Shown piece after piece: positions 111 to 12,378 of a DNA stretch of 21,988 bases; position 1 is the stretch's first letter; the number at the start of each line of letters is the position of its first letter. Source of the stretch: a virus. The stretch is taken from positions 1-21,988 of IMG/VR virus record IMGVR_UViG_3300003873_000076; one strand, written 5' to 3'. The position numbers were made by a program, and so were the translations under genes. Under the pieces are notes generated by a model. It had not been told where the DNA came from. It did not search any database and was given only the letters and a program-made list of their open reading frames with translations.

Positions 111-537
111 TGAGTGGATAGGTATTGATGAATTTTGCAAGATATTTGAGATAACAAAGGCAAATGCCTACACAACAATGAACCTAAATCCAAACTTTAA
201 AGCTTATACAAAAAGATATAAAAAGAGGAGAGTTATAAACAAGGCTATTTTGAGAAAAAGAAACAAGAAAATACAAAATAGAGAGTTTTGCCAAAAGAGG
301 TATTATGAGATTGTAGATGATTTAAGCGAGTCAAAGATAGCAAAGTATTTGGCATCTAAAAGCGATAGATTTAAAAGTCATAACAGTTGGCAGATGTTTA
401 TTAACAAAGGCATGTGGATAAAAAGAAAGATAAAAATAGGGAGGCTATTTAGAATAGACATGTTCGATGAAATGAGCCATTTACTCAAAGATGTAACAAG
501 TAAAGATATAGTTGACTACATAAAAGGCACACGATGA
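103..537 (+). CDS. Putative DNA-binding phage protein, unknown function
   Basis: This 144-residue protein is very basic (many Lys/Arg, for example KRYKKRRVINKAILRKRNKK at about 40-60). Residues 7-30 (IDEFCKIFEITKANAYTTM) look like a helix-turn-helix of the kind that reads 'this regulator defines a site', and a second helical segment (FKSHNSWQMFINKGMWI) lies near residue 95. I chose ATG 103 over the upstream GTG/ATG at 34/37 because AGGAG at 91-95 sits seven bases before it. The end overlaps the next gene as ATGA (534-537), indicating translational coupling. It could be a replication accessory protein or a transcription regulator; I cannot name the family. Confidence 0.6.
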   Translation: MSDEWIGIDEFCKIFEITKANAYTTMNLNPNFKAYTKRYKKRRVINKAILRKRNKKIQNREFCQKRYYEIVDDLSESKIAKYLASKSDRFKSHNSWQMFINKGMWIKRKIKIGRLFRIDMFDEMSHLLKDVTSKDIVDYIKGTR

Positions 538-911
538 AAAAAGAGCAGTCATTATCAAGCAAGATAGCACACTATCTATCGGCAAAGTATCCAAAGGTTG
601 TCTATCGGTTTGATTTGATAGCAGACTATAAAATGAATGCTAAAGTAGCAATGGCTATAAAGAGGCGGTATCTTCACGAGGTCGGATATCCTGACCTCTT
701 TATAGCAAAGTGCAAAAATGGATATGGTGGCTTATACCTTGAGCTTAAAGCAACAAATATCTACAAAAAAGATGGAACACTAAGAAAAGATAAACACTTA
801 CAAGAGCAGGAAAAAATGCACGAGAGGCTAAGAAGAGACGGATATAAGGTGCAGTTCGTGGTAGGGTTTGATGAGGCAGTTAAAGCAATAGATGAGTATA
901 TAAGGAGTTAA
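534..911 (+). CDS. VRR-NUC domain nuclease
   Basis: This 125-residue protein matches the VRR-NUC branch of PD-(D/E)xK nucleases. Residues 51-55 (GYPDL) carry the metal-binding Asp54. Residues 67-72 (LYLELK) carry the E-x-K pair, Glu70 and Lys72. A Gln (90 or 92) follows in the next helix, then the usual strand-helix ending VQFVVGFDEAVKAI. Small stand-alone VRR-NUC proteins are common in phages and are thought to cut branched or structured DNA, that is, to act as Holliday-junction or flap nucleases. Its place just upstream of the terminase fits a role in resolving replication concatemers before packaging, but that is inference. It starts by ATGA overlap with the previous gene. Confidence 0.85.
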   Translation: MKKEQSLSSKIAHYLSAKYPKVVYRFDLIADYKMNAKVAMAIKRRYLHEVGYPDLFIAKCKNGYGGLYLELKATNIYKKDGTLRKDKHLQEQEKMHERLRRDGYKVQFVVGFDEAVKAIDEYIRS

Positions 912-1200: not shown

Positions 1201-1212
1201 AAGATACAAAAC

Positions 1213-1249
1213 CCTCACATTTTGAAATAATCATAAAAAATGTGAGGAG
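1213..1249 (+). promoter_or_regulatory. Hairpin overlapping the next gene's ribosome-binding site
   Basis: A perfect 11-bp inverted repeat, CCTCACATTTT (1213-1223) and AAAATGTGAGG (1237-1247), is separated by a 13-base loop. No U-tract follows, so it is a poor intrinsic terminator. Its 3' arm runs into GAGGAG (1244-1249), the only good Shine-Dalgarno for the downstream TTG start at 1256. Folding would therefore hide the ribosome site, which makes translational control plausible. Confidence 0.55.
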
Positions 1250-1255
1250 TTTATC

Positions 1256-1552
1256 TTGGGATTTATGGACTACTTGGAAAAACTACTACAAAACATACCT
1301 AACAAAAATGAAATACTTATCAACATATCAGAGCGATACTCAGGAAACAGGGAATATATAAAAGATATAAAAAGCAAAATCACAAAACAGTTAATCATAG
1401 ACATATACAAAGAGCGATACAAGGATCGATACAAAAGAGGAACTATCTCACACTTGCTAATCTCAAAAGAAATATCAAAATATCTACTTAGCAAAAATAT
1501 CTTTATGAGTGATGAAGCAGTCAGAAAGGTGCTAAGAAATGATTGTAGATAG
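1256..1552 (+). CDS. Small putative regulator upstream of terminase
   Basis: This 98-residue lysine- and tyrosine-rich protein is probably all helical. Residues about 26-40 (SERYSGNREYIKDIK) followed by a helix (QLIIDIYKERYKDRY) and a terminal HTH-like segment (ISKEISKYLLSKNIFMSDEAVRKVL) recall the layout of Mor/C-type late activators of Mu-like phages, but the match is weak. The start is taken as TTG 1256 because AGGAG at 1245-1249 is six bases upstream; ATG 1265 would be 15 bases away. It overlaps the terminase small subunit start by 14 bases. A late-gene activator would make sense here. Confidence that it is a gene is good; confidence in function is low. Confidence 0.6.
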   Translation: MGFMDYLEKLLQNIPNKNEILINISERYSGNREYIKDIKSKITKQLIIDIYKERYKDRYKRGTISHLLISKEISKYLLSKNIFMSDEAVRKVLRNDCR

Positions 1553-1976
1553 CAAACAAATAGCTGAGATATTTGGAGTATCTGTATCGGCTATAAGAAA
1601 ATGGCATACTTTTGGACTTCAATACACCAAAAAGGGAAATAAGAGATATTATGATACAAAAAAAGCGATAGATTGGTATCTTGACTATAAGAGACCTATT
1701 GAAAATATTGGTGAAATGTCGGCTGAAGAGGCAGATATAAGGCTAAAAATCGCAAGAGAAAAGATGCTAAAACTTGACTATGCCGTTAAAAAAGGCAAGT
1801 TGATAGAGATAGAGAGACTTGATGAGCAAATGGCACTTTTGGGTAATCTGTTTATATCTGAGTTAAGACAATGCTACATAAAACTACCTCAAAAACTCAA
1901 AAAGATAGCAGATAGACATATAAAAAATATGATAGAAAAAATCAAAGAAAAAATCAAAAATGATAATAGCGGGTAA
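1539..1976 (+). CDS. Terminase small subunit (Nu1-like)
   Basis: This 145-residue protein recognises the packaging site and recruits the large subunit. Residues 5-27 (SKQIAEIFGVSVSAIRKWHT) form a MerR/Nu1-type winged helix-turn-helix, followed by the wing (YTKKGNKRYYDTKKAIDWYL). A long charged helix (SAEEADIRLKIAREKMLKLDYAVKKGKLI) corresponds to the dimerisation part of lambda Nu1, and the C-terminus is helical. The length is normal for Nu1-like proteins (lambda about 181). It overlaps both the upstream gene and TerL (17 bases), so the terminase pair is translationally coupled. The cos or pac site it binds is not obvious in the sequence. Confidence 0.85.
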   Translation: MIVDSKQIAEIFGVSVSAIRKWHTFGLQYTKKGNKRYYDTKKAIDWYLDYKRPIENIGEMSAEEADIRLKIAREKMLKLDYAVKKGKLIEIERLDEQMALLGNLFISELRQCYIKLPQKLKKIADRHIKNMIEKIKEKIKNDNSG

Positions 1977-3891
1977 AAGACTTTTATCAGTCTTAGAGTG
2001 GAAAGAACTTATCCCGATAGATGAGTGGGCTGAAAAATACTATCACTTAGAGCCTGAAAGTGCTATCGGGGGTGGACTGTATAACTTTGAGTATGCCCCA
2101 TATCTAAGACTGCCTATGCAATCCATAGGGTTTGACAATCTAAACAACTATAACTTTTGGTTTGCATCACAATCAGGTAAAACTACTCTATCAATGGTGG
2201 CTTTAAACTACTTTATAGATAGAACACCCTCAAACATAGCTTTTTATCTACCAAACGATAACTTAGTCCCCTCAACTTCAGCAGATAGGATACTCCCATC
2301 CATAAGACGAACTCCAAATGCAAAAAAGATAGAGGTAGAAAAAGAGATAAACAAACTCAAAGACAATACTAAAATCATAAGATATGGTGGCGGGGTTTTA
2401 AAGGTTTTAAGCGGAAATAGTGCTGCCAATAGAAAATCATTTCCTGCAAAGTATATATTTATAGATGAGACAAGCGAATTTAAAAAAACTCATATAACAG
2501 AGATAGAAGAAAGAGGGAAAACTTATAGTGAGTTTGGCGGTAAAATCATCAAAACCTCTACATCACTAACTTCAAATGACCCCTGTGTAAAAGAGCATAG
2601 ACAAGCTGATTGCATAATGGAGTATTTTATCAAATGTCCTAAGTGTAAAAAAGAGCATATAGATGACTTTTTAGAAAATGTGAAATATGAAGAGCTAAAA
2701 GGCGATCTTGAAGATGAAGAGTTTAAAGTAAGATACATCAAACACGCAAGAGAAACAGCATACTATGAGTGTCCACATTGTAAAGCTAAACTGGATGATG
2801 AACTTTTTAATAAAGCAGTTGAAAAAGGCAGATGGGAAGCGATAAGAGGTGATATACACAAAGATAAAAAGGTAAGCTTTAGAGCATCAAGTATGCTTAG
2901 TTTTTTTGTAACTATCGGCTCTATGGTTGATAGGTATCTTAACTGTGGAGATGATGAAGAGCTTTTAAGAAGTTTTTTTAATGGATACCTCTCAAAAGTT
3001 TTTACCCCCAAAAAAAAGCAAAAGTCTCATAGTGAACTTTTACCTTTGATAAATGAGGAGATGGACAAAGGGAAGATTTGGAAAGATACATTAAGTATCG
3101 TTGGTAGTGTAGATGTGCAAAAAGACCACTACTACTATGCAGTGGTGGCATTTAAGCAAGGCGTAGCAGTGCATATCTGCGACTATGGAAGAGTGGAAAA
3201 TGAAATAGACCTACAATATAAGATTTTACAGGGATATAAAGATGATGAGGACAATATCCAATATGTTGAAAAATGGGCGATAGATAGCGGATATGATACT
3301 AAAAATGTATATGACCTTGTAGAGCATTTAAACAGTTTAAATGATAAAGCCGAGTATGATGAAACACTTAGAGAGATATTTGATAAAAGGCAAGGTATCC
3401 CCTTAGATGTTGTGCCGATAAAAGGCGCAAATAGAGAGATGAATGTTATATCACAGATAACCACGATAGAGAGTGATATAAACGGTAAAAAGTATGATGA
3501 TAGCTTGAAGCTACATATCATCAATACTAAAATGTTCAAAGACAATGCACAAGGCTACATAGATAGAAGTTTAAATCCTGAATATGAGGGTAAAAAGAGG
3601 CTATCTATACATGCACAAGCCGGTGATGATATACTAAAATCTTTTGTAAGCGAGCATAAAGTAGAAGTGATAAATAAAAAAGGTATATCAAGATATGAGT
3701 GGGTGCCGGTAAAAAAACACCCTTTCAATCACTATTGGGATTGTTTGGTATATTGCTTATATCTTGGTGAAAAGCTTGATGTGAGGTTTAGAGAGCCTAT
3801 CATAAGACAAACAGTAAAAAGAACACCGCCTCCAAAAAGGGAGCAATCCGTTGATGGTTTTGTGATGGGAGATTGGCTGGACGAATACTGA
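1960..3891 (+). CDS. Terminase large subunit (GpA family)
   Basis: This 643-residue packaging motor is an ATPase plus nuclease of the lambda GpA family, of normal length (lambda gpA 641). The ATPase half has a P-loop-like segment ASQSGKTT (69-76), Walker B FIDE (167-170, Asp169/Glu170) and a coupling motif KTSTS (198-202). Two CxxC pairs (226-229 and 271-274) form the zinc-binding insertion typical of GpA. The nuclease half has SVDVQ with Asp385 and AIDSGYD with Asp442 as likely metal ligands. It translocates DNA into the prohead and makes the genome-end cuts. The P-loop lacks the first Gly of a classical Walker A, which is common in terminases. The ribosome site is weak, so translation probably depends on coupling with the small subunit. 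Confidence 0.95.
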   Translation: MIIAGKRLLSVLEWKELIPIDEWAEKYYHLEPESAIGGGLYNFEYAPYLRLPMQSIGFDNLNNYNFWFASQSGKTTLSMVALNYFIDRTPSNIAFYLPNDNLVPSTSADRILPSIRRTPNAKKIEVEKEINKLKDNTKIIRYGGGVLKVLSGNSAANRKSFPAKYIFIDETSEFKKTHITEIEERGKTYSEFGGKIIKTSTSLTSNDPCVKEHRQADCIMEYFIKCPKCKKEHIDDFLENVKYEELKGDLEDEEFKVRYIKHARETAYYECPHCKAKLDDELFNKAVEKGRWEAIRGDIHKDKKVSFRASSMLSFFVTIGSMVDRYLNCGDDEELLRSFFNGYLSKVFTPKKKQKSHSELLPLINEEMDKGKIWKDTLSIVGSVDVQKDHYYYAVVAFKQGVAVHICDYGRVENEIDLQYKILQGYKDDEDNIQYVEKWAIDSGYDTKNVYDLVEHLNSLNDKAEYDETLREIFDKRQGIPLDVVPIKGANREMNVISQITTIESDINGKKYDDSLKLHIINTKMFKDNAQGYIDRSLNPEYEGKKRLSIHAQAGDDILKSFVSEHKVEVINKKGISRYEWVPVKKHPFNHYWDCLVYCLYLGEKLDVRFREPIIRQTVKRTPPPKREQSVDGFVMGDWLDEY

Positions 3892-3893
3892 AA

Positions 3894-3927
3894 CCTCATC
3901 ACTAAAATGTTTTGTAGAGTGATGAGG
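3894..3927 (+). repeat. Hairpin copy 1 (CCTCATCACT arms)
   Basis: CCTCATCACT (3894-3903) pairs perfectly with AGTGATGAGG (3918-3927) around a 14-base loop, three bases after the terminase stop codon. No run of T follows, so it is not a standard intrinsic terminator. The same arms recur in a second hairpin 139 bases downstream. Confidence 0.75.
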
Positions 3928-4032
3928 TAGTCTTTCACTTCGCACCTGAATTCTACCACATCTCTCCAAAAAAGTCAATAAAACAATCAAAAAATGTTCA
4001 AAAAAAATAAGCCTTTAAGTATGAATAATAGC

Positions 4033-4074
4033 CCTCATCACTAAAAAACTAAATTGCTTTATAAAGTGATGAGG
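4033..4074 (+). repeat. Hairpin copy 2 (same arms as copy 1)
   Basis: CCTCATCACT (4033-4042) and AGTGATGAGG (4065-4074) enclose a 22-base loop of different sequence from copy 1. Identity between copies extends to CCTCATCACTAAAA on the left and AGTGATGAGGTA on the right, while the loops are unrelated. This argues for selection on the arms (protein or RNA-processing site) or for a duplicated insertion boundary. Confidence 0.75.
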
Positions 4075-4156
4075 TAACAATAAAGTTTAGCGACTAAAAT
4101 TTTACCCAAATACTCTTTATAAGTCAAGCATAGAAACAGATATTAAATCAATTAGC

Positions 4157-4185
4157 TTTACAATCAACCAAATAGATAGTATAAT
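4157..4185 (+). promoter_or_regulatory. Sigma70-type promoter for the accessory islet
   Basis: TTTACA (4157-4162) and TATAAT (4180-4185) are spaced by 17 bases, the ideal distance. The transcription start would fall around 4192, just before the ribosome site AAAGGAG (4201-4206) and ATG 4213. This near-consensus promoter after terminase means the islet can be expressed independently of the late operon, for example in the lysogen. Confidence 0.7.
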
Positions 4186-4212
4186 TATAAAAAAGATTTT
4201 AAAGGAGTAGTT

Positions 4213-4650
4213 ATGCAAGAAACAAGGTGGTTTGCCGACATAGACAAAAAAGAAGTAGCCAAAAGTTTTGGAGTGCCTGAAAATACTATCATAAAATGGA
4301 AAAAGGCACAAACAGATGGGGATAATTATCGAGGGTATATGTATGATAAAATGTCCTTGATAGCCAAAATGGAAAAAGATACGGAGCAAAAGCTAAAACA
4401 GCTTTTTACGGAAAAAGAGCTTATGGCACTATGGGGAGCTTTTGCCAAAAGCACAATGTATAATTATGATATGATAAGCATGAAAAATGCTCTTGAGTAT
4501 GGGTTTAGTGATTATTGTGTCTATGAGAGCATGGAAGCATCACAGTTCACGGATGATTTGGAAAAATTTAAAGACAATGTTTGCAAAAAATTATCATCAC
4601 TTTGCGATTTTGAAAAATATGTTTTGTTGATGATGTTAAAACAAAAATGA
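4213..4650 (+). CDS. Putative HTH regulator, islet gene 1
   Basis: This 145-residue protein has an N-terminal helix-turn-helix at about 11-32 (DKKEVAKSFGVPENTIIKWKK), the pattern of a small site-specific DNA-binding protein. The rest is helical, with FTEKELMALWGAF followed by a conserved-looking tail (CKKLSSLCDFEKYVLLMMLKQK). The second half vaguely resembles a common family of small phage and plasmid proteins that start with 'FTkaEL' helices, but I cannot name it. It has its own strong promoter and a perfect ribosome site. An autoregulator of the islet or a superinfection repressor is possible. A GC-rich hairpin follows it. Confidence 0.7.
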   Translation: MQETRWFADIDKKEVAKSFGVPENTIIKWKKAQTDGDNYRGYMYDKMSLIAKMEKDTEQKLKQLFTEKELMALWGAFAKSTMYNYDMISMKNALEYGFSDYCVYESMEASQFTDDLEKFKDNVCKKLSSLCDFEKYVLLMMLKQK

Positions 4651-4660
4651 CTTTTACAAT

Positions 4661-4705
4661 CCCCACTCCAAAAAAAAGTGGGGAGACCCCTCCTAACGCT
4701 TTTTT
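4661..4705 (+). terminator. Probable weak terminator after islet gene 1
   Basis: CCCCACT (4661-4667) and AGTGGGG (4677-4683) form a 7-bp stem with an A-rich 9-base loop. The right arm can also pair in a second small hairpin with CCCC at 4687-4690. A run of six T lies at 4700-4705, some distance downstream. The stem is strong but the T-run is not adjacent, so termination may be partial. Confidence 0.45.
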
Positions 4706-4766
4706 GAGTATCCCATAAAATGTGGGTATGCACTTTCAGTAAAAAAATTCTACTATAACAAAATAT

Positions 4767-4879
4767 TATAATCATAAGAAAAAATAACTCTCTATAAAGT
4801 CCTATATTTAGGCACTTTTAGCACTTTTAAAAATAAATTTTGTATGTTTAAGACTTTAATTTTTGATTTAGTGTATAGT
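4767..4879 (+). promoter_or_regulatory. Likely promoter region of the 478-aa gene
   Basis: This AT-rich stretch contains TATAAT (4767-4772) and TATAGT (4874-4879), either of which could be a -10 box; neither has a good -35 box. Between them lies a direct repeat GCACTTTTA (4812-4820 and 4821-4829), a possible operator. The ribosome site AAAGGAG (4897-4903) and ATG 4909 follow. Confidence 0.3.
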
Positions 4880-4908
4880 TTCGTAAATTAAAATTTAAAG
4901 GAGATGAG

Positions 4909-6345
4909 ATGTTAGATTTTACAAATAAGAAACAAATAGGAGTAAAAGAAGTAAGAACCCTTATAAAAAACAATAAAATAAGAAAAATTGCTATTTTAAA
5001 TAGTGATTTTTTAACAAGAGCGGCAAAAAATGAAGCCCTTGCATACTTGTTAAAACAAGAAGATTTTTTAAAACAATATTTAAAAGTAGATATGGATAAA
5101 ATAAAAATATCTACTAAGAAATATTATGTAAATAAAAAAGATAGATATTGTGATGGTATTATGCCTACAAAACACTTTAGCAAAATAGGTCGCATTCCTG
5201 CTTTATTAGATAATGGATGGGGAGGGTATGTAAAACAAAGTTATTATCCTCTAATAAATGTTGCTTTGGAAGATTACATAAAACAAAAACAAAAAGATTT
5301 TATTAGGGGATTAAGAACAAGAGAGCAAAATTTAGAAAAAGCTTTTTACACTTTTAAAAAGATAACAGGCGTAAAAGATGAATGGTATAGCATAATTAGC
5401 TATGAAAAATATGCTAAACAATACGGCTATAAATCATTGCAGCAAGTTTACGCCGCAGCAAGAAGATACAAAAAAACAGAAGAATATAAAAAACTTAGAA
5501 AAGAAAGGCTTTTTAATTATTTATACTCAAAAATATTTGAAAAATATGGCTACAGTATAGGAGATTATATATACTTAAGAGAAGAGACAAGAGATGAAAT
5601 AAAAAAAGAAATGTGCCAAAAAGAAAAAAATTACAAAAAATATGGCAAATTTTTGGCGGATAAAGATATAAGAAGTGTTAAAAATGTCCAGGGCGGACAT
5701 GATGGTTTTTGTATTTTTTTAGATACTCTTGCAGCGGTAAGTTACGATTTTGATGAAGATTGGGACTATTATAGTAAAAGCTGGCACAAACAACACGGTC
5801 CTAAAAAAACCGTAGTAAACAGAAGAGTAACTTTTTACAAAAAAGGAATGGCTCCTAAAACTATCTACTTAGACAATTTTAGAGGGGATTTTATACTAAA
5901 AGCATACAAAGAAGCTTTTAAAATTAGAAAAACACACTACAAAGATACAAAGAAAAAGAGAATACAGTTGGACGCTCATTTTAAAGTAAAAAAAATAAAA
6001 GAGTTGTGTGGTATAGAAATATACACAAGAATTATAAATAATTGTGTATATGATTATGTCGCTTACTATAATAAAACAACATATCACGCTTTTACTAAAA
6101 AAGAAGCTATTACAGGGTTAAAAAATAAAGTTAATAAAAAATATAAAACAGATAAAGAGCTGCTTGACTACAAAGAAGCCAAAAAGTATGGATTTTGTGA
6201 TGCAGGGATAAAAAGTTTTTGCGAAACAAACGGGCTTAATTGCGATAGCAGCTATACAAGAGCGGAACTTAAAAAAATAGTTGCAGAAAATAAAGAGAAA
6301 AACAAACCTTTTATCGCAGAGTTAACAAAAATAGGGATAATTTAA
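4909..6345 (+). CDS. Unknown 478-aa accessory protein, islet gene 2
   Basis: I do not recognise this protein. It is soluble-looking, very rich in Lys and Tyr, with no signal peptide or TM segment. Three parts are visible. Residues 1-240 are mostly helical and basic. Residues about 260-335 look alpha/beta, with GGHDGFCIFLDTLAAVSYDF, WHKQHGPKKTVVNRRVTFYK and PKTIYLDNFRGDFIL. The C-terminus (about 375-478) contains a strand-helix segment (YDYVAYYNKTTYHAFTKKEA) and KEAKKYGFCDAGIKSFCETNGL, a pattern I associate only loosely with uncharacterised phage proteins. The start is secure (AAAGGAG six bases before ATG). Leu is mostly TTA and AT content is high, unlike the terminase gene, suggesting separate ancestry. 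A defence, superinfection-exclusion or nucleic-acid-binding role is possible but unproven. Confidence 0.75.
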   Translation: MLDFTNKKQIGVKEVRTLIKNNKIRKIAILNSDFLTRAAKNEALAYLLKQEDFLKQYLKVDMDKIKISTKKYYVNKKDRYCDGIMPTKHFSKIGRIPALLDNGWGGYVKQSYYPLINVALEDYIKQKQKDFIRGLRTREQNLEKAFYTFKKITGVKDEWYSIISYEKYAKQYGYKSLQQVYAAARRYKKTEEYKKLRKERLFNYLYSKIFEKYGYSIGDYIYLREETRDEIKKEMCQKEKNYKKYGKFLADKDIRSVKNVQGGHDGFCIFLDTLAAVSYDFDEDWDYYSKSWHKQHGPKKTVVNRRVTFYKKGMAPKTIYLDNFRGDFILKAYKEAFKIRKTHYKDTKKKRIQLDAHFKVKKIKELCGIEIYTRIINNCVYDYVAYYNKTTYHAFTKKEAITGLKNKVNKKYKTDKELLDYKEAKKYGFCDAGIKSFCETNGLNCDSSYTRAELKKIVAENKEKNKPFIAELTKIGII

Positions 6346-6635
6346 AAGATTTAAACGGCTTAGGCTTTTCTTTTGCTCAAAAGGAGATTTTAGATTGGAT
6401 GTGCCGTAATGTTTTTAATTAGCTACTAAAAACATAAAAACATTGCAACTGATAAAATTTACCGGTAACATCTTAACCCCAGATGTAAAACAGGGGTTAA
6501 ATAAAAAAGCTATTGTTGTAGCTATTGAATTGTAAAAAACATTTCAATACAGCACCTGTGTCGGTTCAAGAGTGCTACAACAATAGCAAAAGAATTATAT
6601 CAAAAGTAAATAAAACAAAACTTAAGGAGGATGAG
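6346..6635 (+). other. Non-coding stretch rich in inverted repeats
   Basis: No convincing gene lies here. A good Shine-Dalgarno (AAGGAG, 6381-6386) is followed only by a TTG/ATG mini-frame of 4-7 codons (ATG 6399). Then come four inverted repeats in a row: AATGTTTTTA/TAAAAACATT (6408-6417/6435-6444), the palindrome TTACCGGTAA (6459-6468), TTAACCCC/GGGGTTAA (6473-6480/6493-6500), and a 14-bp pair (6509-6522/6574-6587). None is followed by a T-run. The arrangement fits a structured leader, an attenuator or a small RNA. Confidence 0.6.
6509..6587 (+). ncRNA. Candidate structured RNA, 79 nt closed by a 14-bp stem
   Basis: GCTATTGTTGTAGC (6509-6522) pairs perfectly with GCTACAACAATAGC (6574-6587). 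Inside, ATTGAATTG (6524-6532) pairs with CATTTCAAT (6540-6548) with one mismatch around a TAAAAAA loop, and ACAG/CTGT (6549-6552/6556-6559) makes a small second arm, so the fold is a multibranch junction of tRNA-like size. It contains GGTTCAAG but cannot be folded as a normal tRNA. The strand is assumed from the flanking genes; no promoter of its own is clear. It could instead be an operator or cruciform at the DNA level. Confidence 0.4.
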
Positions 6636-7157
6636 ATGGCATATGTAACAAAAGAGGAGGCAAAAACAGCAAGGACAATAGCTAATAAGATAGCTAAAAA
6701 ATACAGATTTAAAATATCTGTTACAAAAGATGATGGGCAGTTGAATGTTGCAGTTATGAGTGGATCGGCTATAACCTTGCAAGATATAGAATGTAATCGC
6801 ATATTAAAAAGGTTTATTGATAAATACGGATTGACAATCAATAAAGAGAAAGATTTTATAGACAAATATAAAGAGTTTTTAGATGGTCCTTATTATTTAG
6901 TGATTGAACATTACTGGGAATATTTGCACATAAAAGAGATCATTCAAGATGCAAAAGGGACATCTATAAGCATATTAAAACATACATCCAAGATAGGTGA
7001 AATGCTTGAACAAATAGAAAAAAGCATTAAAAAGGCTTTAAACTGGTTTGATGAAAGCGATCCTATGACTGATTATTTTAATACTGCATTCTATTATAAT
7101 GTAACTATTGGAAAATGGAATAAAAAATATACAGTAATGGGAGGGATAAAATGTTAG
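6636..7157 (+). CDS. Unknown 173-aa protein, islet gene 3 (possible LPD29-like)
   Basis: The start is ATG 6636, preceded by a consensus ribosome site (AAGGAGG, 6624-6630); an upstream TTG at 6525 would begin inside the stem of the inverted repeat and is rejected. The protein starts with a basic helix (KEEAKTARTIANKIAKKY), then strands RFKISVTKDDGQLNVAVMSG. It ends with MTDYFNTAFYYNVTIGKW. An N-terminal 'F-K-I-S-V' strand with a closing 'D-Y-F...Y-Y-V-x-I' element recalls LPD29 domains of polyvalent proteins carried by phages and conjugative elements. That is a remembered resemblance and not a match I can test. It is translated with the tiny downstream frame by a 7-base overlap. Confidence 0.7.
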   Translation: MAYVTKEEAKTARTIANKIAKKYRFKISVTKDDGQLNVAVMSGSAITLQDIECNRILKRFIDKYGLTINKEKDFIDKYKEFLDGPYYLVIEHYWEYLHIKEIIQDAKGTSISILKHTSKIGEMLEQIEKSIKKALNWFDESDPMTDYFNTAFYYNVTIGKWNKKYTVMGGIKC

Positions 7158-7204
7158 AGGCTGTCTTTATAGTCCTTTTGCTAATAGCATTAGGGCTAAT
7201 ATAA
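7151..7204 (+). CDS. 17-aa hydrophobic peptide
   Basis: ATG 7151 overlaps the stop of the previous gene and has a strong ribosome site (GGGAGGG, 7139-7145). It encodes MLEAVFIVLLLIALGLI and stops at 7202-7204, ten bases before the terminator stem. The peptide is a single hydrophobic segment with almost no flanking charge, like leaderless membrane mini-proteins or the peptides of type I toxin systems. Translation is supported only by the ribosome site and coupling, so it may be spurious. Confidence 0.4.
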   Translation: MLEAVFIVLLLIALGLI

Positions 7205-7213
7205 AAATCTACA

Positions 7214-7246
7214 GGCTGGACGGTTTTATATCGTCCAGCCTTTTTT
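7214..7246 (+). terminator. Intrinsic terminator ending the accessory islet
   Basis: GGCTGGACG (7214-7222) pairs perfectly with CGTCCAGCC (7232-7240) around a 9-base loop, directly followed by TTTTTT (7241-7246). This is a textbook rho-independent terminator and the strongest in the window. It closes the islet and would stop transcription from terminase reaching the head genes unless antitermination occurs. Confidence 0.92.
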
Positions 7247-7635
7247 ATGTCTAATTTTCTTTATGCGGCACTCTCCATTACAATCTACATATAACTACAA
7301 TTTACAGTCAAAACGCAAATTTTACATTCTCACTGTAAGCCACTACCAAAAAAAATCAAAAAAATTTGAAAAAAATACCGTGACATTTTAAGAAATGGGC
7401 TTTAAGGTTTGTTTTTTAGGATTTTATGCTCAAAATTTACCCTCTTTGAAATGCCTTGTTTTAGGGGTTTACTAGGGGTTGAAATGTGGGGTTAAAAGGT
7501 ACTCCGTGAAGAGGAAAATCTTGTGGGGGTCGGCATAGCCTCGTTTACTCTCAAATATTTAGCTTTTATTTTTCGAGTAGCAGTATCAAGCTAAAAAGAC
7601 TTTTTGTAAAAACATTAATTGCACCTTAAAAATAC
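7247..7635 (+). other. Long non-coding region before the head operon
   Basis: No gene with a ribosome site is visible on either strand. Three copies of GGGGTT (7464-7469, 7475-7480, 7488-7493) are spaced 11 and 13 bases apart, roughly one helical turn, and another G5 run lies at about 7524-7528. An 8-bp inverted repeat TTTAGCTT/AAGCTAAA (7558-7565/7588-7595) follows. The region probably holds regulatory sites for the head operon and could also contain the packaging site, although nothing identifies it as such. Confidence 0.5.
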
Positions 7636-7677
7636 TTGACACAAAGATTGGTCGGTTTTGTCCTATTTTTGACCAAT
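7636..7677 (+). promoter_or_regulatory. Candidate head-operon promoter with overlapping dyad
   Basis: A perfect -35 box TTGACA (7636-7641) is followed by only poor -10 candidates (TCCTAT at 7661-7666, spacing 19). A 7-bp dyad, ATTGGTC (7647-7653) and GACCAAT (7671-7677), straddles the promoter position. A promoter with a weak -10 overlapped by a dyad suggests control by a repressor or activator. It lies about 35 bases before the first head gene. Confidence 0.4.
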
Positions 7678-7710
7678 TTAAAAAAGTAAGATTGTGCAAA
7701 AGAGGTGAAG

Positions 7711-7953
7711 ATGAAGAGTTTAGGCGAAAAGTTACAAGATGTTCAAGAAGCTATCTCTTACATAGAGGGTGGAAAAGTTGGAGAGTATAGGACGGGGTTG
7801 TCTTATGTTATCAGACTTCCACTATCTGTTTTATACAAGAGAGAGAATGAACTTATCAAAAAGATAGATATTTACGGGAGTGCTTATGTTGAAGGGCAAA
7901 ATACAAAGCCGAATAAAACATACAACCACATCAGTTTTACAGATAATATCTGA
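7711..7953 (+). CDS. gpW-like head-tail joining protein
   Basis: This 80-residue protein has the lambda gpW pattern: an N-terminal helix (SLGEKLQDVQEAISYIEGGK), a short beta hairpin (GEYRTGLSYVIRLPLSV), a second helix (LYKRENELIKKID) and a small tail. gpW (68 residues in lambda) joins the filled head to the tail connector and lies just before the portal gene, as here. The tail of about 18 residues is longer than in lambda. ATG 7711 is preferred over GTG 7705 because AGAGGTG (7701-7707) then acts as the ribosome site. Confidence 0.75.
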   Translation: MKSLGEKLQDVQEAISYIEGGKVGEYRTGLSYVIRLPLSVLYKRENELIKKIDIYGSAYVEGQNTKPNKTYNHISFTDNI

Positions 7954-8131
7954 TATTTATCTTTTGCCTTTTTTGGTTGGCGTAACTCTTTTTTATACGC
8001 TTGGCTCTTTTGTATCTATCTCTTTTGATATAACTCTTTGGAGTATTTATACAAGAATTGTCTTTGCATTTCTCACTTTGGTTTTTTTCATATTTCTCCT
8101 TTATATCAAGATAAGGAGCTTTAAAAAATGA
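7886..8131 (+). CDS. Two-TM small membrane protein, possible holin
   Basis: This 81-residue protein starts at ATG 7886 (GGGAG at 7876-7880) inside the gpW gene and ends by ATGA overlap with the portal (8128-8131). It has a basic N-terminus (KGKIQSRIKH), a first hydrophobic segment at about 25-43 (YLLPFLVGVTLFYTLGSF) and a second at about 57-74 (RIVFAFLTLVFFIFLLYI), ending in basic KIRSFKK. Two TM segments with a positive C-terminus fit small holins or superinfection-exclusion proteins. Its place between gpW and portal is unusual, and no endolysin is next to it, so the holin idea is weak. The double overlap supports it being a real gene. Confidence 0.6.
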   Translation: MLKGKIQSRIKHTTTSVLQIISDIYLLPFLVGVTLFYTLGSFVSISFDITLWSIYTRIVFAFLTLVFFIFLLYIKIRSFKK

Positions 8132-9528
8132 GCTTCTTATCTGATGCTTCAACCGTTATAAATGCAAGTTTTTATGAGGGTGGCAAGATAACAAAAACAA
8201 ATGCCGACTTCACAAATGCAATAGGAACTTTTGAAGATACAGCAGCGAATGACCGTCTTGAGATGATGAAAAGGGCAAGATGGCTACACGAAAACAATCC
8301 AATCATTGCTAACATAGATGAAACTATCAAAAACAATGTTATAGCAAACGGTATAAAACTAAAATCCTTAGTAAAAGATAAAAACATAGCAGATGAAATA
8401 GAAGAGAAATATAAGCAAAGAATGGAAAATAAAGATGCTTTTTCTCTTGACGGTAAAACTGCCGGCACGATATGTGAAAGACTTATACTTGGTGCTAAAA
8501 TGATGGATGGTGAGAGCATAGTAAATTATATTATCACAAATGATAAATTTCATCCTCTTAAAGTTCAAGTTATAGAGGCATCACAATTTGATTTGTCAAA
8601 ATATGGAGACAATATCTATAGCGGTGTTGAAGTAAATAAATACAATAAACCTATCAAATACTACTTTACCGATGATAAATATAATGAGTTTGAAGTTGAT
8701 GCTAAAAATATCCTCCATATAATGAATATGGAAAACAGAGCATCTCAAATAAGAGGTGTTACTGACTATAAACAGGTCATACTTGACCTTAAAAACTTTA
8801 TGGCTTACAACACAGCTCTTATACAAAATGCAAGAGTAAGAGCAAATCTACCTTACTATGTAACTACTGAAAATCCATCAGGATCAAGAAGAGGAAATGA
8901 AAGCGAAACAAACTCTCAACTCCAACAGATAAACGGCTTGATAGTGCATTATCTAAACAGAGGTGAAGAGCTAAAGCAACTTGACCCTAAAGTAGCAGGA
9001 GATAACCATAAGGATTTTTTGATGATGGTTATCAGACTGATAGCAAGTGGTAGAAAAGTAAGCTATGAGTTGGCTTTTAGGGACTATTCGCAGGTAAATT
9101 TTGCATCAAGCAGAGCATCGCTCATACAGGACAATAAAAGATTTGATTTTGAGCAGTATCAGCATATCTTAAACTTTAAAAATCCTGACTTTGAAAGATG
9201 GCTTGATGTGATGGTTTATAGTGGCAATATCAAGTCTATAAAACCGTCATACTACACAACACACAAAAACGAATTTCTTAAGAAAAACTGGATACCACCT
9301 GCAAGAGAATGGGTTGATCCTTTAAAAGACATTACAGCTATCAAAGAAAAATTAAACCTAAACATGACAACTCTCACAAGAGAGATAGCAAAACAAGGGC
9401 TTGACATAGAAGATGTTATAGCGGAAAAACAAAAAGAGAAAAAGATGTTTGAAGATGCTGGGTTGGCATACATAGACACAACTCCAAATTTACAACTTCA
9501 TCAAATATTGTTAGGAGAAAAGGAATGA
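8128..9528 (+). CDS. Portal protein (lambda gpB family)
   Basis: This 466-residue protein forms the dodecameric ring at the head vertex through which DNA enters and leaves. It has the lambda portal signature: the early segment LEMMKRARWLHENNPIIANIDETIKNNVIANGIKL, the middle VIEASQFDL...SGVEVNKYNKPIKYYFTDD, the stem helix region DLKNFMAYNTALIQNARVRA, and the hallmark C-terminal YSQVNFASSRASLIQ. It is shorter than lambda gpB (533). It couples to the two-TM gene upstream and the protease gene downstream by ATGA-type overlaps. Its N-terminus lacks the extension that lambda trims. Confidence 0.9.
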   Translation: MSFLSDASTVINASFYEGGKITKTNADFTNAIGTFEDTAANDRLEMMKRARWLHENNPIIANIDETIKNNVIANGIKLKSLVKDKNIADEIEEKYKQRMENKDAFSLDGKTAGTICERLILGAKMMDGESIVNYIITNDKFHPLKVQVIEASQFDLSKYGDNIYSGVEVNKYNKPIKYYFTDDKYNEFEVDAKNILHIMNMENRASQIRGVTDYKQVILDLKNFMAYNTALIQNARVRANLPYYVTTENPSGSRRGNESETNSQLQQINGLIVHYLNRGEELKQLDPKVAGDNHKDFLMMVIRLIASGRKVSYELAFRDYSQVNFASSRASLIQDNKRFDFEQYQHILNFKNPDFERWLDVMVYSGNIKSIKPSYYTTHKNEFLKKNWIPPAREWVDPLKDITAIKEKLNLNMTTLTREIAKQGLDIEDVIAEKQKEKKMFEDAGLAYIDTTPNLQLHQILLGEKE

Positions 9529-12037: not shown

Positions 12038-12378
12038 TGAGTTTAAAAGAGCAGTTATCAAGTGACGCAAATGCTATGCTAAACAGTGATGAGTTAGCTT
12101 TAGAGGCTACTTATCATAAAAAAGATGGCACAAACATATCACTAAACTGCTTTTTAGATGCTCTATCATCAAACAATATGCTAAGAGGCAATAAAGAGGT
12201 TGAGGATATGTTGTTAGCTCATGTTCATATAGACTTTACACCTGAAGTGTATGATGAGTTTAGTGTTGATGGTGATACTTACAAGATCACCTCTTATGAC
12301 AAAAATGACCTTTTTACCTCTTTGCATCTTAGTAAAAATAAAAGACCTACCGGAAAAAACTATGGCTTTAGAAGTTGA
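12037..12378 (+). CDS. Head-tail joining protein (lambda FII-like)
   Basis: This 113-residue protein sits where lambda FII lies, between the capsid/decoration genes and gpZ. It has the small beta-barrel pattern of FII-type connectors: LALEATYHKKDGTNISLNCFLD, then AHVHIDFTPEVYDEFSVDGDTYKITSYDKNDLFTSLHL, with 'DEF.VDGDTYKI' matching the 'G-D-x-L-x-I-x-G' turn common to the family. Sequence similarity is low and the call rests on order and fold pattern. FII proteins form the hexameric interface receiving the tail. It overlaps the next gene by 17 bases. Confidence 0.65.
   Translation: MSLKEQLSSDANAMLNSDELALEATYHKKDGTNISLNCFLDALSSNNMLRGNKEVEDMLLAHVHIDFTPEVYDEFSVDGDTYKITSYDKNDLFTSLHLSKNKRPTGKNYGFRS

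Follow-up and report, generated by a model that had tools for sequence, protein, structure and literature searches.

A variable islet of accessory genes between terL and a probable cos site in a lambda-type phage of Campylobacterota-like affinity

The 21,988-base IMG/VR virus record IMGVR_UViG_3300003873_000076 (the window, i.e. the whole stretch of DNA that was analysed) carries an islet at positions 3,892 to 7,246, between the gene for the terminase large subunit (terL) and a gpW-like head-tail adaptor gene. The islet holds four genes, for a 145-amino-acid (aa) protein with a helix-turn-helix (HTH), a 478-aa protein, a 173-aa protein of the LPD29 type and a 17-aa hydrophobic peptide. Taken as a whole, it is rather probable that these genes are exchangeable cargo lying between terL and cos, the site of terminase cutting, in a lambda-type siphophage, and that they have a possible leading-region role. 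A cargo site beside cos explains the islet better than does a moron inside the late operon.

What lies between terL and the gpW-like gene

Judged by sequence, the phage of the window appears to be temperate-type with Campylobacterota-like affinity. Its large terminase is of the GpA type (PF05876 and PF20454), as in lambda-type 5' cos phages, and gave no match when aligned against genome contigs and viral contigs. The nearest named relatives are the Nitratiruptor phages NrS-4 and NrS-5 (TerL 40-43% and portal about 40% identity), and because these are the best named relatives by both proteins a Campylobacterota host is likely.

The phages used for comparison are GpA-type, were found through TerL or portal, and are distant relatives. 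Among them the terL-gpW interval measures 2.1 kb in NrS-4, 5.5 kb in L002 and 1.6 kb in L003, as against 3.8 kb in the window. In seven of the GpA phages (2G7b, Pd_22F, CRP-821, Thiohalocapsa phage, PS3, B8b and S-CBS1) the gap from terL to the next head gene does not exceed 30 bp, and FP_Epona and SNW-1 have a terL-gpW gap of about 450 bp. Since the cargo of the NrS-4 islet (a 163-aa, a 101-aa and a minus-strand 197-aa SHOCT protein) has no family in common with that of the window, and since nine other phages have gaps no longer than about 450 bp, the interval is a fixed site with variable content. The flanking genes thus adjoin, or nearly so, where the cassette is absent, as is expected of a moron, and different cargo occupies the same site in NrS-4, L002 and L003, as is expected of a cos-side hotspot. 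The preliminary description of this DNA had proposed that terL and gpW normally adjoin, that the islet is an accessory insertion, and that synteny in related phages would bear on this. The first is true of most GpA-type phages surveyed; the second agrees with the other genes found in this interval and with the base composition (29.3% GC in the islet, 34.7% in terS-terL and 36% in the head genes); and in the nine distant phages without an islet the comparison of synteny came out as proposed. That the islet is exchangeable cargo is highly probable.

NrS-4 and NrS-5 (LC545445/6; PMC9723563) are also the closest parallel in layout, with the same order terS-terL-islet-conserved element-gpW-portal and an islet whose last elements are a hydrophobic peptide of 17 aa and a hairpin rich in GC, whereas the 478-aa and LPD29-type genes are absent there. 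Two further observations concern the interval in other phages: the minus strand of L002 carries a tRNA-Leu (gag) at 12248-12333, between its islet and gpW, and a minus-strand islet gene of L003 (4524-5018) looks by eye like an ADP-ribosyltransferase.

A probable cos site right of the islet

An element, GGGGGTCGGC(A/G)T(A/C)GCC, is common to the window (at 7525) and NrS-4 (L004 18782), and in both it stands to the right of the islet and ahead of the gpW-like gene; its score was equalled in 3 of 1000 shuffle pairs. A scan by portal alignment yielded two close relatives, L013 and L014 (75-76% portal identity), both of which keep the gpW-like protein. The L014 contig (24,263 bases; first bases GGTCGGCGTAGCCC) opens with GGTCGGCGTAGCCCCGAACTCTCTC, that is, inside the element, with just the final two G of the G run left, and the L013 contig starts 19 bases beyond that point. 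The first base of L014 aligns to the first base of lambda (left end GGGCGGCG), with agreement at 10 of 16 positions. On the simplest reading both contig starts are left ends of virion DNA, and therefore cos lies between terL and gpW. Upstream, the open reading frames (ORFs) before terL in NrS-4 overlap closely, which leaves scant room for a cos ahead of terS. That the element at 7525 is cos is very probable. The preliminary description had thus located the islet correctly between terminase and head genes; it missed the probable cos, which would place the islet at a genome end and not simply in the late operon.

Two attempts to extend the element gave nothing that could be used. Searched as a DNA pattern over IMG/VR, it returned L014 and ten others, seven of which (all but L103, L105 and L109) were examined and looked like chance occurrences in GC-rich DNA. 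The mapped overhang of SNW-1, AGTGCATAGCCC, has GCATAGCC in common with the window element and was not counted, because with respect to the terminase genes the two lie on opposite strands. Just 5' of the gpW-like gene is a hairpin (window 7645-7684, L013 113-150, L014 137-170) whose loop keeps CCTATTTT and whose arms vary yet stay complementary in the three relatives (ATTGGTC/GACCAAT, GAGTGG/CCACTC, ATGGAT/ATCCAT); it might be a cosB, an RNA element or a leader.

Genes and signals of the islet

The elements that the preliminary description had listed, from hairpins to terminator, were all found where it had placed them (Table 1), and the good ribosome sites it noted are present, with an AAGGAG/GGAGG-type site before each of the four islet start codons. 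Its terminator and 17-aa peptide are real.

Table 1. Features of the islet and its flanks in the window
Feature	Position	Strand	Basis or remark
Terminase small subunit (terS), Nu1/phrog_57 family	1539..1976	+	Pfam PF07471 3.4e-9; phrog_57 1.1e-22
Terminase large subunit (terL), GpA type; left boundary of islet	1960..3891	+	PF05876 2.9e-32, PF20454 1e-30
Twin hairpins, identical perfect 10-bp stem	3893-3928; 4033-4074	+	z -3.8; z -4.5
Sigma-70-like promoter match, TTTACA-17-TATAAT	4157..4185	+	11/12, prediction
145-aa protein, N-terminal HTH	4213..4650	+	weak HTH/CENP-B_N and terminase small-subunit-like HTH matches, all below cut-off
Hairpin and T run between HTH and 478-aa genes, possible terminator	4661..4720	+	z -3.4; weak terminator-like match at 4681
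478-aa protein	4909..6345	+	C-terminal ~200 aa are a domain common to phage and plasmid proteins
Highly structured stretch, perfect 14-bp stem 6509-6522/6574-6587	6470..6610	+	z -7.35 vs shuffles
173-aa protein, phrog_10415 / LPD29-type family	6636..7157 (ATG at 6636)	+	phrog_10415 6.1e-12
17-aa hydrophobic peptide MLEAVFIVLLLIALGLI	7151..7204	+	ORF overlaps end of 173-aa gene
Intrinsic terminator, 12-bp stem and T run	7213..7241	+	z -6.5
Probable cos site (cosN near 7528-7541)	7525..7560	+	kept in NrS-4; contig starts; lambda left end alignment
gpW-like head-tail adaptor; right boundary of islet	7711..7953	+	phrog_20307
Portal protein	8128..9528	+	PF05136 1.6e-60; 75-76% identity to L013/L014

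The pattern of the twin hairpins occurs twice in the window, once in each of them, against 0.01 expected per window. In NrS-4, too, terL is followed by a pair of repeats (L004 16817 and 16878), for which the predicted hairpins are weak. A hairpin of similar style, CCTCACATTTT...AAAATGTGAGG, stands 5' of terS-terL at window 1210-1250. The promoter match is the sole one of 11/12 on the plus strand of the window and is notable by its location alone, given that 0.58 are expected per 22 kb; because of this expectation, independent transcription of the islet, as predicted, is put no higher than plausible. The hairpin at about 4661-4720 suggests that the HTH gene may be a separate unit. No homologue of the HTH protein was found in the phage collection.

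For the 478-aa protein no Pfam, NCBIfam or PHROG family was found. Its C-terminal domain is 35.5% identical to a protein encoded on a Shewanella plasmid (E 2e-21) and matches proteins of L116 (1.1e-31), gut phages (1e-6 to 1e-8) and L002 (4.7e-4); by sequence comparison it is a domain not described before that turns up repeatedly in phages and plasmids. The related gene sits inside the terL-gpW islet in L002 and adjoins the terminase pair in L116. In both it is followed by a protein of 146-150 aa (L002 10485-10937, L116 4661-5101), alike by eye, which is a possible partner and is absent from the window; the HTH protein has no similarity to the 146-aa protein of L116. Searches of viral and genome contigs with exact peptide patterns returned no close homologue of either the 478-aa or the 173-aa protein.

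The structured stretch ahead of the 173-aa gene had no match in Rfam. The family of the 173-aa protein is common in IMG/VR, at least 532 of 599 pattern matches being confirmed among the matches listed, and its relatives are found in lytic phages amid small unannotated genes. Pfam LPD29 (PF18847), a domain of polyvalent proteins, is matched by 17 of 36 family members (best 1.5e-12). The family differs from the polyvalent proteins in being a solo protein with an insertion of 30-50 residues, and the window member itself falls below the model. Solo domains of this kind have been proposed as facilitators of early invasion (PMC5512222). L086 has a 172-aa LPD29-type gene between terminase and portal, then a gene for a 341-aa protein whose C-terminus carries, by eye, a GxCDxGI motif like that of the 478-aa protein; the pairwise similarity is not significant.

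Among the 15 short ATG ORFs of the window with a Shine-Dalgarno match, the 17-aa ORF alone is strongly hydrophobic; shuffled windows give a mean of 0.025 such ORFs, a figure somewhat flattering in that the hydrophobicity threshold was set after the peptide had been seen. NrS-4 has one strongly hydrophobic ORF among 24 in 31.8 kb, and this too encodes a 17-aa peptide, MTHLILLLFVLWFLGVI (L004 17966-18019). As in the window, its ORF overlaps the end of the preceding gene and is the last of the islet operon, with a GC-rich hairpin after it. The peptide and the LPD29-type gene are no obligate pair, because only one of six phrog_10415 genes checked is followed by a hydrophobic peptide. That one is in the Methylophilales phage Melnitz-3 (L007 2210-2693), where a 31-aa hydrophobic peptide overlaps the gene end as the window's peptide does.

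Outside the islet, phrog_20307 weakly matches NrS4_38 as well, which in turn weakly matches the phrog_118 head-tail adaptor. An 83-aa membrane protein (window 7880-8131) overlaps the gpW-like and portal genes; it is kept in L013 and L014 (E ~1e-15) and has no counterpart in the NrS-4 annotation. Further upstream, window 534-911 encodes a protein resembling VRR-NUC and Holliday junction resolvases (phrog_5702 1e-11, phrog_824 1e-13).

Competing readings and the possible role of the islet

The best-described parallel is provided by phages P2 and P4, whose defence hotspots directly adjoin cos (2022, PMC9122126). Shared features are variable accessory genes directly by the packaging site, cargo of several genes, and cargo in either orientation; in P2 the hotspot lies next to the portal gene. 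The present case differs in being a lambda-type GpA phage with terL on the islet's other side, in having no recognised defence gene, and in resting on far fewer genomes compared.

Several points weigh against a cos-side cargo site with a part in conflict. The cos reading draws on two contig ends, one element and one analogy, and the window element by itself agrees with lambda at 9 of 16 positions, a value equalled at 27 places in the window. The L013 and L014 contigs are without the terL side, and hence without the islet content of the closest relatives. L002 and L003 have no recognisable cos element next to gpW despite their islets. The Sulfurimonas phage SNW-1 (OP810509; PMC11290706), likewise a Campylobacterota 5'-cos phage with a lambda-group TerL, has cos at the start of terS by PhageTerm mapping, so that the conventional placement does occur in this host group, and its terL-gpW gap holds one small gene and no islet. 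As to the cargo, PADLOC found no defence system among the window's islet proteins, so that the recognised anti-phage systems of the P2/P4 hotspots have no counterpart here, and the structure model of the 478-aa protein (pLDDT, the predicted local distance difference test, of 47) gives no usable fold. Foldseek returned RnlA as the best match to that model (E 0.23, not usable) and no significant match to the 173-aa model (pLDDT 76). The idea of a defence or superinfection-exclusion system, put forward in the preliminary description together with structure prediction as a check, is thus not supported so far.

It is improbable that the element at 7525 is another late-region signal, that both contig ends are assembly accidents, and that the islet is a plain terL-gpW insertion. 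Such a reading gains from there being just two contigs, from an element score equalled by 0.3% of shuffles and from the lack of the element in L002 and L003, yet the two contigs are independent, come from different metagenomes and end less than 20 bases apart inside the element, one of them at the position aligned with lambda's first base. An ordinary moron, i.e. a cassette for lysogenic conversion or superinfection exclusion that the prophage expresses and that lies near cos by coincidence, is unlikely. Like the morons of lambdoid phages, the islet is inserted between otherwise adjacent late genes, has its own promoter match and terminator and differs in GC; the HTH regulator, the membrane peptide and the exchange of the islet in NrS-4, L002 and L003 would also fit. 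The window islet differs from those morons in its place at a probable genome end, in having several genes and in a transcription predicted from sequence, and a moron would leave unexplained both the relatives' contig ends beside the islet and the presence in the cargo of an LPD29-type gene known from lytic phages. It overlaps with the cos-side reading, the main difference being one of timing.

Type I toxins are small hydrophobic peptides, and the window 17-mer is a single-span peptide of this sort (mean hydropathy 2.89). It could be the core of a module in which structured or antisense RNA controls a membrane toxin that keeps the prophage stable or causes infections to abort, with the remaining genes as passengers. 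The rarity of such a peptide by chance, its recurrence at the same place in NrS-4 and the strongly structured stretch upstream in the same unit are in keeping with this; however, what follows that stretch is the 173-aa gene, not the peptide ORF, the overlap of the peptide ORF with the preceding gene points to translational coupling, and no comparable structured RNA was seen in NrS-4, which makes a toxin module distinctly improbable. Least credible, and very improbable, are late-operon packaging or head genes specific to this phage, with the HTH protein as a possible second small-terminase-like factor. The HTH protein weakly matches small-terminase PHROGs (E 0.004-0.15) and the islet is on the same strand as the late genes, but the window already has a proper Nu1-type TerS, the NrS-4 islet lacks homologues of the window's islet genes, the islet has its terminator and low GC, and the LPD29-type relatives sit amid small unannotated genes of lytic phages.

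Under the cos-side reading, cos would lie between terL and gpW, not upstream of terS, in this lambda-type (GpA terminase) siphophage, and terminase cutting there would make the islet the right end of the linear virion DNA (cos-gpW-portal ... terS-terL-islet-cos). At such a location genes could be gained and swapped while the terS-terL and gpW-portal-head blocks stayed intact, as in the P2/P4 hotspots. In lambda the right DNA end is established to enter a new host first, and with the same polarity here the islet genes would form a leading region, one that its own promoter would turn on early and in the lysogen too. Regulation would then fall to the HTH protein, the 478-aa and LPD29-type proteins would work in the cytoplasm as effectors against the host or rival elements, and the 17-aa peptide would be the effector at the membrane. 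By analogy, an early or lysogenic role in conflict is a tentative guess, tenable though leaning to the doubtful side. The bolder proposal, that cos moved to between terL and gpW in one lambda-type lineage and so gave it a leading region of exchangeable early genes that disarm the host or exclude rivals, is rather unlikely.

Two parts of the islet lend themselves to testing, the C-terminal domain of the 478-aa protein and the 17-aa peptide, which recurs in NrS-4. The terL-gpW interval is a place to seek conflict genes in the phages of Campylobacterota, where few are known, and if the cos-side reading is true, the rule that DNA beside cos gathers cargo would reach from P2/P4 to lambda-type phages.

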